Positions 1 through 7,857 of a stretch of DNA of 64,000 nucleotides are shown piece after piece. The translations under genes and the position numbers were made by a program. Source of the stretch: Picochlorum sp. 'celeri' (taxonomy: Eukaryota > Chlorophyta > Trebouxiophyceae). The DNA lies in NCBI GenBank assembly GCA_010909725.1, contig JAACMV010000015.1:434001-498000 (forward strand). Direction: 5' to 3'. The notes beneath the pieces are model-generated. The model ran no database searches, was not told the origin of the DNA, and saw nothing but the letters and a program-made list of their open reading frames with translations. Every line of letters begins with the position of its first letter. The first letter of the stretch is position 1.

Positions 1-66
1 GACCTCTCAGCACATCAAGGGGTCCCGATTCAGCATGTCCGCAGATTAACCAGCACTGTCGTAGAT

Positions 67-3000
67 ATGCTTCGAGCAATGTCGAAAAATGATGACACTA
101 TTGGTTTGGATAAGGTCCACCTTCAGGGAACCTCGGTTGACTTTTCAGGGGCCAGTGAATCTGGTGATGAGAAGGCATCCTTGTCTTGTGGGGGGGCTTC
201 CTCCATTAAGGATTCCGAGATAACGGCGACAACAGAACTCTTGAAAGCCCAATTTCTGCCACAGCCTGAATATGTTGGGGACGAAGTTCTTCCATTTTAT
301 ATGGACAGCGACACTATGGAGACAGCAGAGACGTGTCATGGAAGAATCCCCAAGTCACACAAGAAGCAGGTTGCAGTGAATTGGCCTGGGATGATCATTT
401 ACATTTTCTACATCATGGCATTCATCATCTATGTGTCGATTCGTGCCGCAAAGACTCTTGATTTGGGCTCCTCTTTGTGGTATGGAGTTATAGTACTCAT
501 GGCTGAGATTTTGGGGGCTTTTGCTGTATTGCCATATGGTCTTTGCCTGATATTCAAAGTGACAGATCCTGTACCAGAGGCTGTCACTGCTGCTTTGAAT
601 GGCCTTCCAGCGCAGACAAATCTGCGGTATCATATACGAGTTCTGATACCATGCTACAAAGAGCCTCTTGATGTCGTCACCAAAACTTTTCTGGCTGCAA
701 TGTTTGCTGCATTGCCAGTGAATTGCAAAAGGACAGTGTATCTTCTCGATGATGGCAAAGATCCAGAGAAGAAGTCGTTTGTTCGATCGTTGAATATGAA
801 CAATGCTGTCTACATTAGTGGCAGAAAGAGGGCCAAGGGAGAGATGAATGGAAAATCTAACAATATTAATCATGCCATGAGACTGATCTACCCTGGAGAG
901 GATTTAGACATTCCATCAAATGAAATTGTGTGTGTTTTCGATGCTGATCAGGTGCCTAATGCCGATTTCTTCAGCAAAACAGTGCCACTTTTGGATGGGG
1001 GTGAAGATGTTGCAATGATCTTGACCCCACAAGCATTTTCAAACCTTAATCACGATGGGGACATTTTCAACCATGCTAATGTGCACTTCTGGGACTATAC
1101 TCAACCAGGATATGATGCTCTTGGTTTGATTTCGTGCACAGGTACAAATTTTTTGCTGAGAGCAAAAGCGTTCCAAGAAGCAGGGTGGTTTCCTGATTGG
1201 ACTTTGACTGAGGATTTTGCCCTAGGTATCGAACTCAAGAGACGCAATTGGCAGTGCCGGTACGTCGATGAGTATTTGGCTCTTGGTGAAGCTCCTGATG
1301 AGGTGAGAAACTGCTTTCAACAGAGATCGAGATGGGCCAAGGGACATTTTCAGTTATTCTACAACAGGGTGAGAAATCCAACATTTGGGAAAGGCGCCCA
1401 AGGCTTATCCCTCCTCATGCGCTGGCTTTATGGCTCTGTGGCTTTGTCATACTTCTCAGCCTTTATAGGTACACCCTTGCTCATGCTGGTACCTATGGTT
1501 ACCGTTTGGTTTGGTGTTTTCCCCATTGTCATCAACATTTGGTGTGCCATAGCAGTCACCGTTTACTACCCAGCAACGCTAATGGTCATGTATTACACAA
1601 GATCACTGAGACATCTAAAGGTATGTGATTTATGTATTTCATGCTGTCAGAAATCATCTATATAAGCATTCATCCATCTTGCAGTCGATGTGGTTTGCAT
1701 CTGTAGCAAACAGCATTCTGTGGTGGGCATTCCTGAAAGCTATGTATCGAGCAACAATTGGAAGGTGGTTGGCTGGCACTATTGTGTTCAAGGTGACTGC
1801 AAAAGGTCTGCAGAAGCTCAACAATCTACCAATACGCGATCTCTGGATGGCAAGTATTTGGTTCATTTTCTCAATCGTCACTTTGATTTTTGGTTTGATC
1901 ACCTACGTTAGAGGAGAGGTGACCGACACACCCTTGGCCATTTCAATCATCTTCATTGCGTACAACCTGATCCCGCTCTATCTTTTGATCCAGTACGCTA
2001 TTTACAGGTCACCTTTGTTCTTCACCTTGGTTTGCCGTGTGATGATGTTCATCTCAACATTTTTGAGCATCTTTGGTGTTGTTCTAGTGTGGCTCCTGTA
2101 TCCTAGGACATATGACTACAGTGAAGCTCTGAGCAACAGCTTGTACTTTTTTGATACACAACGGGTTGGCCAATTGCCTGGTGACTTCAGGGTCTCTTGG
2201 AGACAAAGTACGTGAATGCAGTTCGGATCATGGTGTATCTGTGCATGTTTAATCTGGTCAGTTTTGTTTACAGGTTCATTTGCTGGTGAAACACAATCGG
2301 CTGTTTATCTGGCAGAGAATATAAATGATACGCTTCTCCTTGACAACATAGCTGTACAGCCTTTTGGTTCACCATATAGTCAGCCTTTTGGAAGGAAATT
2401 GTTGCAATCTGGTGATGCCTCTGATGCTTTTGCCTCTGCAGTCGACACCGCTTCTCAAGAGCCAGATATTTTTGCTGACCCATTCAGTTCATCTGATTCA
2501 TCTAGCTCATCAGGTTCCTTTGATCCATTCAGCAACCTGGATCCTTTAGGCTCCTCTGATCCGTTTGGTTCGTCTGATCCATTTGGTGGCTCCTCAGATC
2601 CGTTTGGGTCGTCAGATCCGTTTGGCTCATCTGATCCATTTGGTGGCTCCTCAGATCCTTTTGGCTCGTCTGATCCGTTTGGTTCTTCAGATCCATTCGG
2701 TGGCTCATCAGATCCATTTGGCTCGTCTGATCCATTTGGTGGTTCATCAGATCCGTTTGGCTCGTCTGATCCATTTGGTGGCTCATCTGATCCATTTGGT
2801 GGCTCATCTGATCCGTTTGGTGGCTCCTCTGATCCGTTTGGTGGAATGTCAGATCCATTTGCAGGACTATCAGATCCATTCGCAATGTCTGAGATAGAAC
2901 TCAAGCTTGCAACATCCACACCATGGGACCTCTCAGGGGGTTGGGTCTCAGGTATGAAGGGAGGTAACATCAAAGCCACCACCCCGATTGCCTTTACAAC

Positions 3001-4243
3001 TAGTGTGCTTGCTTGGGGATTCATGGGATTCCATAATGCATTCGAAAAATCTGGCCAAACAGACTATTTGATGGACTCTGTCAAAACTGGAGCAGATTAT
3101 CTCATGAAGGTTCATCGTAGAATTCCTTTGGAAGATAAATCACTGTTAGTCACAAGGGTTGGTGACGTAGAACGCGAACCAGAGCTCTGGTATCGCCCAG
3201 AAGATGCCAGAACAAGAGAAGCGTTTGCTGTAGACCTCTACTCAAGCGTTGGAGGCTATGGCGCTGACTTGGGTGGATCTGTGTCAGCTGGACTTGCCGC
3301 TGCCTCCACCTTATTCAGAGAATCTGGATATGAGACTCCCGAGTACACAGAAAAACTTCTCAACAAAGCCAAAGAAGTTTATGAAGACTCGGTTGGTGCC
3401 AAGTTTAGATTCGACAGGGGCGACCATAACCTGTCCGAGCTGTACAACTCGTCAAGCATGTATGATGACCTTGCCTGGGCAGCAGGCTGGCTATACAAAG
3501 CAACGAAAGAGCAGCGATATCTGGACGATGTGTATACTCATTACATATCGTATTTAGAAGAAGAATCATCAGCATCTTCTTGGAAGTACGCATTCGATTG
3601 GGACAATGTCTTCTGGCCTCTGAATGTCTTGATGGCTCAAGAAACTGGCAACTCAACCTTTGTCAAGCACAGCGAAGACTTCCTCAGCAACTGGATGTGT
3701 GCAAATAATGCAGCAAACTATACACGACGAGGTCGAGCATATAATGCATTTAGTGCACCCTTGGGGTCGACTGCAAATATTGCCATGTCTGCTTTCATGT
3801 ATGCAGACCTCATTGAGCACAAAGACTCTGCCAAATCACAAGCATACAAGTGCTGGGGACTCTCACAAGTTCGCTACATGATGGGAGATGCAGGTCGAAG
3901 CATGGTGGTAGGACAAGGACATAATCCACCCAAACGAACTCAAGACAGAGCTGCTGCGTGCCCAGCGCGCCCAGGTGTCTGCAACAGGGTAACAAGCTAT
4001 CTATCTCCCGACCCAGACACATATCAACTGACTGGCGCGTTGGTCCATGGTCCTGGCAAAAGCGATTATTATATTGACGAACGAACAAATGACGCATCCA
4101 TGGTGGGAATAGAAAACAATGCTGGTTTCACTGGAGCCCTTGCAGGAGCTGCCATGCTTCCTAGTGGCATGTGGGAAATCTGTTTGCAGCAATTCGGAAT
4201 TTACAGAGACGATCCCATCTGCGGATCATTCCTCACTATTTAG
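67..4243 (+). CDS. Cellulose synthase-like GT2 fused to a GH9-like domain
   Basis: Three exons, 67-1620, 1685-2207 and 2274-4243, give one frame of 1348 residues. The first half is a family 2 glycosyltransferase of the cellulose synthase type. It has two N-terminal membrane helices (about 115-170), a cytosolic catalytic domain with LLDDG, VFDAD, LTED and QQRSRW, an FKVTAKG gating-loop-like motif, and about five further helices, so by analogy with plant CesA the C-terminus would lie outside the cell. Next comes a DPF-repeat linker (about 756-897) and a GH9 endoglucanase-like domain (about 905-1348). The usual GH9 DAGD motif, the HHR histidine motif and the catalytic Glu near the C-terminus all look replaced. 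The frame is open to the left edge, so the true start may lie upstream. If the second intron is not removed, the locus reads as two abutting genes, 67-2215 and 2216-4243, with stop and ATG touching (TGAATG). I favour the fusion. Confidence 0.75.
2208..2273 (+). other. Intron joining the GT2 and GH9 reading frames
   Basis: The segment starts GTACGT, ends TTTACAG, is 66 bp long, and has donor and acceptor of the same type and length as the 64-bp intron at 1621-1684. Removing it makes codon AGT from A2207 plus GT2274-2275, and the GH9 frame continues. If retained, a TGA at 2213-2215 ends the synthase and an ATG at 2216 opens a frame that starts with a signal-peptide-like hydrophobic stretch. Alternative splicing could therefore produce either a fusion or separate products. 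Confidence 0.7.
2471..2889 (+). repeat. DPF-motif coding repeat (linker)
   Basis: A degenerate 18- or 21-bp coding repeat encodes tandem SSDPFG and SSDPFGG units; I count about 19 DPF tripeptides including the edge copies. It lies between the glycosyltransferase and the GH9-like domain. The units vary at third codon positions but keep the protein motif, suggesting selection on the peptide. DPF is the classic binding motif for the AP-2 alpha appendage, but whether this linker faces the cytosol is not settled by the sequence. Confidence 0.9.
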
Positions 4244-4882: not shown

Positions 4883-5155
4883 TTTATACGCAGTATATTC
4901 TCAATATATAGATATTTTTAATACTATTTAATGGCCAAATGGGTCTGATACAAACAATCGAAACTGACTTTTGCAATCGATATTTCTGTGCTGAAACCAT
5001 ATTAGTAGCCTACTAGTAGTATCGCAGCGTCGATTGTAGTGATCCAGTTCCCATGTATGGGAAGAAGATGCGTCTTCTTTTCCCGCTCTTCCACAGAGTA
5101 AAGTGGATAGTATTTCTTGAAATACTGGTATTGTATCAAGTCGAAGAGATATACG

Positions 5156-6496
5156 ATGGAGGTATCCTGTTTTGGGTATAATTCGTCAGGATTGTCACAT
5201 GTGACATGTCATTCCAGAACTCAGATTTTGCATACATGGCACGCTGGTCACCAAAGGCTCTTTAGAAACAAGAATAATACCACACAATACGCATCAGTAA
5301 GTCGCGGAAGGGGTGTATCCAGAAGTTGTGCTGTTGTGGGAACAGAACAACCAGGGTTGCTGTTTTCGACCGGAGAGCCTGCAGCATGGGATGAAGCTGG
5401 CGTTGGCCATCCAATCGTGCGGTACTATCTTGGTGATAATGAGCAGCGATGGTTTATGTGGTACACAGGAAAGAGTACGGCATGCCATGATATAGATGGA
5501 ATCTTTCCATCATCTGGGTCTATCGGGCTTGCCGTGTCATCAGATGGGTTGCATTGGGAGCGAGGACATGGTCCAATTTCAGGCGCTCGAGGGGAATCGC
5601 GGTCCAAAGATGTAGGAAAAGTGATTCAGCCCAATGAGGATTGGTGGACGCATGATACGTGCCACGTGTCGGTGTCTGATGTGCAGATTTTGTCAAACAG
5701 TGCTGTGGATTCTCCTGGAGGGGTGTACTGGTGCTTCTATGCTGGAGGGGACTTTGAACAGGTCCAGGTGCCAGAGGGGTTACGAGTGACGGATGCGTGT
5801 CCTACTGAGCGGGAAGGTCTTCGAACGCGACCAGGGCTTGCAATGTCTCAGGATGGTAGGAATTTTGCCAGAATTGAGGGAGATCATCACACTGGTGCTT
5901 TGTTTGATGTTGGAGAGCCTGGTGAATGGGATGCATTATTTATTGGAGCACCGCAAGTTGTGGCAGCTGGTCCACGCGATATGAGAATGTATTATCACAG
6001 TTATGATGAAAAGAAGAAGCGATATGTGGTTGGTGTCGCAACATCCCCGGATGGATTTAGGTGGGAGAAGCGGGGGCCTGTGTTTGATGGTGCTCCTGAA
6101 GGGGCGCCCGATGATACCTTTGACTCCATGGGAGCAGCATCTCGATGCGTTGTTCGAGACATTGATACAAAGCAGTATTTTATGTTTTATGAGGGAGTGT
6201 GCAGAGCAAAGAAGCGCAGATCTATAGGTCTGGCAGTCTCCAAGGATGGTATATCATCCTGGAAGAGATGCGATGCACCAATTCTGGAGGCATCAGAAGA
6301 TGATGAATGCTGGGATTCTGGGTCTGTTGGAACGCCATGGGCTGTGTCCATGGCCAAAGGTCGATGGAGATTGTACTATTCAGGAAGTGACAAGGCCCAT
6401 GGATCCTCATGGAATGGCATTGGGGTTGCTCTGAGTGATCCAGAGGGTCAGGTGTTCCACGGAGCACCAATAACATTTACAAAGAGAGTGGCATGA
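5156..6496 (+). CDS. Five-bladed beta-propeller glycosidase-like protein (GH43/32 fold)
   Basis: A 446-residue protein starting at the first in-frame ATG (5156). An N-terminal stretch of about 55 residues rich in Ser, His and Arg looks like a transit peptide. The body shows repeated blade signatures: aromatic strands FMWYTGKS, WCFYAGG, RMYYHSYD, FMFYEGV and RLYYSGSD, each paired with an S-x-DG-x-x-W/F turn (SSDGLHWER, SQDGRNFAR, SPDGFRWEK, SKDGISSWK). This is the arabinanase/levansucrase/invertase fold. Similar plastid proteins of unknown function occur in plants and algae. I cannot assign a substrate or confirm the catalytic acids. Confidence 0.65.
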   Translation: MEVSCFGYNSSGLSHVTCHSRTQILHTWHAGHQRLFRNKNNTTQYASVSRGRGVSRSCAVVGTEQPGLLFSTGEPAAWDEAGVGHPIVRYYLGDNEQRWFMWYTGKSTACHDIDGIFPSSGSIGLAVSSDGLHWERGHGPISGARGESRSKDVGKVIQPNEDWWTHDTCHVSVSDVQILSNSAVDSPGGVYWCFYAGGDFEQVQVPEGLRVTDACPTEREGLRTRPGLAMSQDGRNFARIEGDHHTGALFDVGEPGEWDALFIGAPQVVAAGPRDMRMYYHSYDEKKKRYVVGVATSPDGFRWEKRGPVFDGAPEGAPDDTFDSMGAASRCVVRDIDTKQYFMFYEGVCRAKKRRSIGLAVSKDGISSWKRCDAPILEASEDDECWDSGSVGTPWAVSMAKGRWRLYYSGSDKAHGSSWNGIGVALSDPEGQVFHGAPITFTKRVA

Positions 6497-6763: not shown

Positions 6764-7857
6764 ATGATTAAGATTGGAATGGTTGCAGCCCTTGGGGCTG
6801 GAATGTTTGCTTCGGCGAATGCTGCTGCAGGTGGGTGACCAGGCTTCGGATGGACGAGGTCTCTGTTGCTTTCTTGCTTTTTTGGAGTTTGGCGTTGCAA
6901 AAAGTTGCACACGAGTTGAGGAGTGTGCGGGAATCTCTGCTGGAAACGTGTGATTGAGACTCTATCTGATTGTTTGACTGGAGTCATGGTCGTCTTTTGA
7001 AGCGACCGTACACACGGCCAGTGAAAGACTCAGCATCTAGAAGCAAACATGAAAACCAGCAAAAATGTTTACAATGCGAGTAAAGATCATCGTGACTAAT
7101 TGTTGATACGTACTACTGTGCAGGACTCTCTCTGTATGTGCCACACAATGTGGAGGCCGATGCCACTGGCGCGACATGGACGGGGACATTTGAGGCTCCA
7201 ATGACCGTCTCATACAATGGAAAACTGGAGTACGCCGCATTCTGCGTGGAGAATGGAGCATCTTGCTTTGTGGAGCCCTCTTCTGACATTGTGACTGCTG
7301 AATACACAGACGCCAAGGAGATTATTCCCTTTGAAGTGGGCGGCATGGATCCAGACACCCCATACACTTGCTACATTGCAACAATTCTTCCAAAAAGCAT
7401 GGTCTGCAGTGACCCAGTCGCTTTCAGAACTGGTGCAAACGCAGGAGCAGTTCAGAATGAAGCAGCGCAAGCTGTTGTTCCAGAGCTGCCAGTTGTCACA
7501 GAGCCTGTTTTTGTTGCTGATAATGTGGTGGATGTACCAGCCCCAGCAGTTGATGTACAGGCTGCAGCACTCGATGCCCCAGCCCCAACAGTTGACGCCC
7601 CAGCTCCAGCAGTCGATGCCCCAGCCCCAACAGTCGACGCCCCAGCTCCAACAGTGGATGCTCCAGCTCCAGCAGTGGATGCACCAGCTCCAGCAGTGGA
7701 TGCACCAGCTCCAACAGTGGATGCTCCAGCACCAACAGTCGATGCTCCAGCCCCTGAAGCTATTGTTGAGACCTTGGATGCCAGAGAGACTCCATCTGAT
7801 GTTCCAGAGGAGGGATCTGTTACACAAGGAGTTGCCACATTCACCCCACTTGAGTAA
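6764..7857 (+). CDS. Secreted protein with beta-sandwich domain and VDAPAP repeat tail
   Basis: Two exons, 6764-6830 and 7124-7857, joined across a 293-bp GTGGGT...GCAG intron in phase 1, give 266 residues. Exon 1 encodes a typical signal peptide (MIKIGMVAALGAGMFASANA). The next 100 residues look like a fibronectin III or Ig-like domain, with TWTGTF and YTCYIATI strands and a few cysteines. The C-terminal half is a Pro-Ala-rich tail of about twelve VDAPAP units. Such tails are common in algal cell-wall and extracellular-matrix proteins. No specific family was recognised. TGTAA at 7911-7915 lies 54 nt after the stop. Confidence 0.65.
7530..7757 (+). repeat. VDAPAP(T/A) coding repeat
   Basis: A tandem 18-bp coding repeat gives VDAPAPT or VDAPAPA units in the tail of the secreted protein. 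Copies differ mainly by GCC/GCT/GCA and GTT/GTC/GTG changes, so the peptide is kept while the DNA drifts. The reverse strand is also open through the repeat, which is a by-product of its composition. Confidence 0.85.

Follow-up and report, generated by a model that had tools for sequence, protein, structure and literature searches.

The window analysed here, a 64,000-nucleotide stretch of the genome of the green alga Picochlorum celeri (contig C15, positions 434001-498000), opens within a gene that joins a synthase of the BcsA/CesA type, a member of glycosyltransferase family GT2, to a C-terminal domain of the cellulase family GH9. We consider it probable that the 1500-amino-acid product makes cellulose and that its GH9 domain, without hydrolysing the chain, handles it as it emerges at the channel exit. 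The evidence lies in the structure of the gene, the intact GT2 motifs, and the replacement of seven active-centre residues in the GH9 domain, a change found in different degrees throughout a large family of green algal fusions.

The spliced gene and its synthase

The region contains three open frames (67-1665, 1625-2215 and 2216-4243), and bases 2213-2218, where the second ends and the third begins, read TGA ATG. Taking out two introns, 1621-1684 and 2208-2273, leaves a single open frame from 67 to 4243. A preliminary description of this DNA had reported the TGAATG abutment, a 66-bp segment with GTACGT and TTTACAG ends and a 64-bp intron just upstream, and all three were found in the sequence as described. 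Its gene start at position 67 had to be moved: the frame stays open upstream of that ATG and continues, beyond an intron of 75 bp at window -130 to -56, in the true first coding exon (window -464 to -131), whose own ATG is preceded by an in-frame stop. The N-terminus of the resulting protein of 1500 amino acids resembles that of its relative P0007. The features of the gene and of its synthase part, including the transmembrane (TM) helices assigned to each exon, are as follows.

1..1620, extending upstream to -55, with a further coding exon at -464 to -131, forward strand: exon 1, encoding the N-terminus, TM1-2, the GT2 domain and TM3-4 (from the open frame, splice map and hydropathy)
637..1344, forward strand: GT2 glycosyltransferase domain (PF13641/PF13632; Pfam E 7.6e-17 and 2.7e-21; matches to the solved bacterial cellulose synthases 5ej1/4hg6, E 1e-28)
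742..759, forward strand: GT2 motif LLDDGK (first Asp)
937..954, forward strand: GT2 motif FDADQV (DxD)
1204..1221, forward strand: GT2 motif LTEDFA (TED)
1318..1335, forward strand: GT2 motif QQRSRW (QxxRW)
1621..1684, forward strand: intron of 64 bp, phase 0 (GTATGT...CTTGCAG), whose removal restores the frame; P0003 and P0006 start MQSMWFA, as a call starting inside the intron would
1685..2207, forward strand: exon 2, encoding TM5-7 and the first GH9 residues
2208..2273, forward strand: intron of 66 bp, phase 1 (GTACGT...TTTACAG), splitting the GH9 domain and containing TGA at 2213-2215 and ATG at 2216-2218
2274..4243, forward strand: exon 3, encoding a linker and the remaining GH9 domain, with the stop at 4241-4243

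The GH9 domain itself provides evidence for the second intron. Its Pfam profile is split by 2208-2273: exon 2 ends with profile positions 1-30 (E 2.7e-4, a match that alone misses Pfam's own cut-off), and the frame from 2216 supplies positions 42-444 (E 6e-73). In a genome search the N-terminal match covers 1-38, but there it overruns the TGA into the intron. With about the first 30 GH9 residues upstream of the intron, neither of the two abutting frames contains the whole domain. In the full-length relatives P0007-P0010, the junction aligns without gaps once 2208-2273 is removed. Because the segment divides the profile and the relatives are uninterrupted at this point, we consider it to be spliced out. 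Six shorter relatives (P0001-P0006, 837-878 amino acids) open with MWFA or MQSMWFA, at the start of exon 2 or a little upstream of it, and cross the junction in one frame; they look like unspliced open-reading-frame calls, from relatives in which the second intron is apparently absent. Fused proteins are also present in EukProt (P0087, P0088, P0090), under names of the Trinity type used for transcript assemblies.

The abutment of TGA and ATG in the same frame would be compatible with two genes or a dicistronic messenger RNA, with 2215 as the end of the synthase and 2216 as the start of a secreted GH9 protein, and the frame from 2216 does open with MQFGSWCICACLIWSVLFTGSFAG, which is signal-peptide-like by eye. 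Such an arrangement would, however, leave the first GH9 residues on the synthase, and in the ten nearest relatives examined (P0001-P0010) the frame is unbroken, with no signal-peptide-like sequence at the junction. We rejected it on the ground that the GH9 domain is split over both frames, and give it almost no credence. The single spliced GT2-GH9 gene in a green alga that the preliminary description had predicted is, at the level of the gene, well supported by the split profile and the uninterrupted relatives. Were the intron kept, window 2216-2290 would encode a signal-peptide-like N-terminus from the intron end and the start of exon 3.

The GT2 domain contains all the motifs that mark the BcsA/CesA superfamily (DD, DxD, TED and QxxRW). 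Hydropathy reveals two segments before it and, after it, one segment of roughly 50 residues that could hold two helices, followed by three more. Seven TM helices are likely on this reading, and they could be arranged as in plant CesA, two before the GT domain and five after it, in which case the C-terminus would lie outside the cell. A few residues separate the last helix (VWLLYPR at 2087-2107) from the start of GH9 (YDYSEAL from 2111), and the protein thus has the architecture of the fusion family described below: GT2 and GH9 on one chain, with GH9 just after the last TM helix. Its GT2 catalytic core is common to bacterial BcsA (5ej1, 4hg6), from which it differs in having no PilZ match and a GH9 tail in place. 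Judged by these likenesses, the product of the GT2 part is most likely a beta-1,4-glucan (cellulose), which would be extruded through the protein's own channel.

Loss of the GH9 active site

The GH9 domain is encoded in two pieces separated by a repetitive linker.

2111..2206, forward strand: GH9 N-terminal piece, a few residues past TM7 (Pfam GH9 positions 1-30, E 2.7e-4)
2274..2908, forward strand: linker of about 218 amino acids with 19 DPF motifs, inserted within GH9; minisatellite at 2549-2880 with a 21-bp period
2909..4141, forward strand: GH9 domain, Pfam positions 42-444 (E 6e-73; solved GH9 structures, best E 3e-57)
2942..2974, forward strand: degenerate catalytic-base loop, WVSGMKGGNIK replacing WYDAGD
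4097..4129, forward strand: degenerate catalytic-acid site, SMVGIENNAGF replacing NEVAxDYNAGF (Glu to Met)

In a comparison with 37 well-covered stand-alone GH9 proteins, the fusions have lost the residues aligned with seven positions of T. fusca Cel9A that we take to form the active centre (D55, D58, H125, W313, R317, H376 and E424). The window protein has, in that order, Ser, Gly, Pro, Ser, Gly, Gln and Met in their place. The base Asp pair (DAGD) and the acid Glu (NE) of active GH9 enzymes are thereby replaced by Ser, Gly and Met. The GH9 profile is kept, and 36 of the 55 columns that are near-invariant in stand-alone GH9s are retained.

This loss extends to the relatives. E424 is Glu in 37/37 stand-alone GH9s versus 0/55 fusions aligned at the site (from a set of 65 that excludes a Bryopsis-type pair). 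When the acid residue was read by pattern in 78 fusions, it was lost in 66 of the 68 with the site covered (P0140, P0154 and P0164 were read by hand, P0151 separately, and a false pattern match in P0092 was dropped). D58 is still Asp in 13/62 of the fusion set and in 0/18 of the nearest relatives, the D55 and D58 columns lying in a length-variable loop where alignment is less sure than at E424; P0027 and P0145 have both base Asp residues and an Arg at the acid site. Some of the replacements are themselves common among fusions (R317 to Gly in 49/65, H376 to Gln in 39/65), and W128, an aromatic residue beside the active centre, is retained in 63/65. The stand-alone GH9 genes of the same genome, each read on one haplotype, present a different picture: those on C17 (30792-32111) and at C15:179909 have the whole triad, and DAGD and NE are seen in the pieces of another on C3.

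Because its acid and base residues are gone, the GH9 domain should be unable to cut by the normal GH9 mechanism; its active centre appears to have been rebuilt without them. The preliminary description had envisaged polymerisation and editing on one chain, and the seven lost residues count against the second half of that idea. An active endoglucanase that edits the glucan leaving the synthase, in effect a built-in KORRIGAN, would agree with the profile match (E 6e-73) and with the extracellular position suggested by hydropathy. It would have to work with Met for the acid Glu, without either base Asp and with four more active-centre residues replaced, in a family in which 66/68 fusions covered at the site lack the acid, and we regard it as very improbable. 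KORRIGAN, the membrane-anchored GH9 protein of the plant cellulose synthase complex, likewise places GH9 beside cellulose synthase, but it is a protein apart from the synthase, separately anchored, and its GH9 is of the active type. Members of that class have their own N-terminal helix and no synthase, whereas the window GH9 is fused to GT2.

The rebuilt centre could also mean a new ligand. GT2 membership does not fix the sugar, and the synthase might make another beta-glycan (mannan, mixed-linkage glucan or glucosaminoglycan) to which the altered GH9 centre is fitted. Against this, the nearest solved structures are those of bacterial cellulose synthases, and the genome paper of the related alga Coccomyxa cites cellulase-made protoplasts and Calcofluor staining (PMC3446292); we think a product other than cellulose unlikely.

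The linker is inserted between the WRxS and DLxGG motifs of GH9. Its comparison was tried on 33 sequences, of which 23 were readable: ten relatives (P0007-P0010, P0012-P0015, P0017 and P0018) have linkers of 119-352 residues with 5-18 DPF motifs, and linkers without DPF occur in P0019 (27 residues), P0020 (111) and ten further sequences (11-24). In other eukaryotes DPF is a motif to which the AP-2 adaptor binds in the cytosol; the stretch here is predicted to be extracellular, unlike that setting.

Distribution, history and reciprocal loss

The preliminary description had suggested looking for GT2-GH9 fusions in other green algae, and both domains were found, at the cut-offs used, in 71 of 189 proteins examined. 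Named fusions come from Chlorella, Micractinium, Auxenochlorella, Coccomyxa, Myrmecia, Trebouxia, Elliptochloris, Symbiochloris, Apatococcus, Botryococcus (by name code), Raphidocelis, Chlamydomonas euryale and Bryopsis. The homologue searches scored about 8000 word-sharing candidates, and one of them gave the best 120 of 215 matches. The proteins are 90%-identity clusters, many of them metagenome entries, and related sequences among them are non-independent. Gene models are uneven: P0016 (Micractinium) is without TM5-7 and the junction, and several fusions stop before the acid site.

The fusion, which the preliminary description thought would be a separate invention, is not new. Blanc et al. 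described the architecture in Coccomyxa subellipsoidea in 2012, inferring cellulose from the synthase and cellulase domains in a passage that is silent on lost catalytic residues (PMC3446292). The Coccomyxa fusions have the same two domains on one chain and belong to the same family as the window protein, and in four Coccomyxa-named fusions (P0065, P0066, P0120 and P0123) the acid Glu is lost.

A quick GT2 tree, with long branches and a distant outgroup, places six unfused synthases (P0096, P0097, P0098, P0117, P0118 and P0125) as one starred group inside the fusions, a pattern that reads as loss of GH9. In a GH9 tree from all columns, the Bryopsis fusion lies beside stand-alone GH9s on unstarred branches; without the catalytic columns, the 34 sampled fusions fall on one side of a branch with 86.8% support, not starred. 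A single origin of the fusion is favoured by these trees, not proved. Recent transfer from prokaryotes was rejected: 34 loci in genome contigs were 23-33% identical over stretches of the GT2 region, and none had a GH9 match in the DNA examined, while both positive-control loci matched. A viral origin was likewise rejected, none of 26 pattern matches in viral contigs being confirmed. Both scans rely on two short motifs, which distant fusions would escape.

The six GH9-less synthases grouped inside the fusions, together with the lost catalytic centre, raise the question of whether GH9 is a functionless passenger, a relic kept by its joining to an essential synthase. The occurrence of both domains in 71/189 proteins speaks against this, as do the new residues common to fusions at some of the lost positions. 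GH9 is also conserved well above the linker and the N-terminus: it is 74-76% identical to that of the four nearest full-length fusions, which places it between the GT2/TM part (85-87%) and the linker (47-52%). We regard a passenger as a minor possibility, unlikely but not negligible.

Intact catalytic motifs in the two domains appear to exclude each other. Of the 71 two-domain proteins, 60 cover TED, QxxRW and the acid site alike and 11 do not. In 58/60 the GT2 motifs are present and the acid Glu absent (including P0091, with GED for TED); in 2/60 the acid Glu is present and TED and QxxRW are both absent; and none of the 60 has both GT2 motifs and the acid Glu. The exceptions, P0099 (Bryopsis sp. 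KO-2023) and its close relative P0100, were counted as one event. They share the architecture and junction position of the window protein and form its mirror image: their GH9 triad is intact (W313 is Ala), and their GT2 part keeps DD and DxD and has lost TED and QxxRW. We suggest, tentatively and at somewhat less than even chances, that when a synthase and a hydrolase share one chain a single activity survives. Most green algal fusions would then have kept the synthase, with GH9 as a non-cutting chain handler, and Bryopsis-type fusions the cellulase, with the synthase as a dead membrane anchor.

In P. celeri, an FGGY kinase gene adjoins the GT2-GH9 gene upstream on the same strand (L033 1652-3001, C15:431652-433001), and the annotated CesA-GH9 proteins of Chlorella sorokiniana and C. 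ohadii have an FGGY kinase domain at their N-terminal end. The gene order looks conserved, and the two Chlorella models look merged. Two more GT2 genes have Cellulose_synt matches (L035 3207-7712 and L040 2674-5648); L040 has ankyrin repeats by Pfam, and the frame preceding L035 is ankyrin-like by eye. Elsewhere in the window, 5117-6496 is an open frame of 459 amino acids that looks by eye like a propeller-type glycosidase (no Pfam match at E 0.001), and a minisatellite at 7528-7754 encodes VDAPAP-type repeats inside the open frame 7138-7857.

A proposed role for a non-cutting GH9 domain in cellulose synthesis

In the account that we favour, the synthase would extrude glucan through its own channel, and the GH9 domain would sit outside the cell a few residues past the last TM helix. 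Most likely, its part would be to hold or steer the glucan where the channel opens outside, or to regulate the synthase, without hydrolysis. Several observations weigh against this account. Glucan binding is suggested by the retained profile and W128 only, and two other cleft residues, W313 and H125, are gone; conservation of the short N-terminal piece of GH9 (57-62%) is below that of the main GH9 part; some synthases of the same clade have no GH9; and the assembled copy of the gene on the second haplotype has 1-bp indels throughout.

This second copy lies on contig C27 (436768-440939; L034). The genome analysed here totals 27.41 Mb in 30 contigs, and the published assembly is a phased diploid of 27.43 Mbp in two sets of 15 scaffolds with 46% G+C (PMC7225527). 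Across 8.8 kb the C27 copy differs from the window copy by 19 gap openings and three mismatches, all between -54 and 4642, and the preceding 3.9 kb are identical between haplotypes; a heterozygous stretch nearby has, for comparison, 116 mismatches and 24 gap openings in 9.3 kb. According to the genome paper, short-read polishing was not applied (PMC7225527). Because the 3.9 kb before are identical, mismatches are few and the assembly is unpolished, the indels are more likely, though not proved, to be long-read errors. With the window copy free of frameshifts, we dropped the reading of the gene as a pseudogene.

A functional parallel is the tunicate CesA-GH6 protein, in which a synthase also carries a C-terminal cellulase-family domain without its catalytic Asp (PMC7464555, PMC10334666). 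The loss of this Asp is published (PMC7464555), and the parallel drawn in the preliminary description is thus closer than was claimed. It stops short of the domain itself: the tunicate protein is a separate fusion, in animals, with GH6 and not GH9, and Pfam matched GH9 alone, with no GH6, in the C-terminal frame of the window protein. A 2025 study that used GT2, PilZ, zinc-binding and GH domains to classify CESA-type sequences (PMC13016765) may have seen GT2-GH9 architectures. No report of a dead algal GH9 or of the Bryopsis mirror case was found in the literature searched, which is weak evidence of absence, subscription papers lying mostly outside it. The fusion family was already known, and the window gene is a further member of it; what makes it interesting is the loss of GH9 catalytic residues and the reciprocal loss in Bryopsis. 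A 2013 survey reports that cellulose synthases of linear terminal complexes were not found in the Chlorophyceae genomes it analysed (PMC3797821), and we infer that the GT2-GH9 family is a candidate for these synthases in chlorophytes.

Why cellulose synthesis needs a cellulase such as KORRIGAN is an old open question. Evolution has apparently run the experiment in green algae, tying a cellulase domain to the synthase and keeping it in many of them without its cutting residues. P. celeri is small, sequenced and the subject of published gene editing, and the need for a non-catalytic GH9 domain could be tested in it directly. If the survival of one activity per chain holds true, then together with the dead GH6 domain of tunicates it would mean that the contribution of a cellulase to cellulose synthesis can be non-catalytic.

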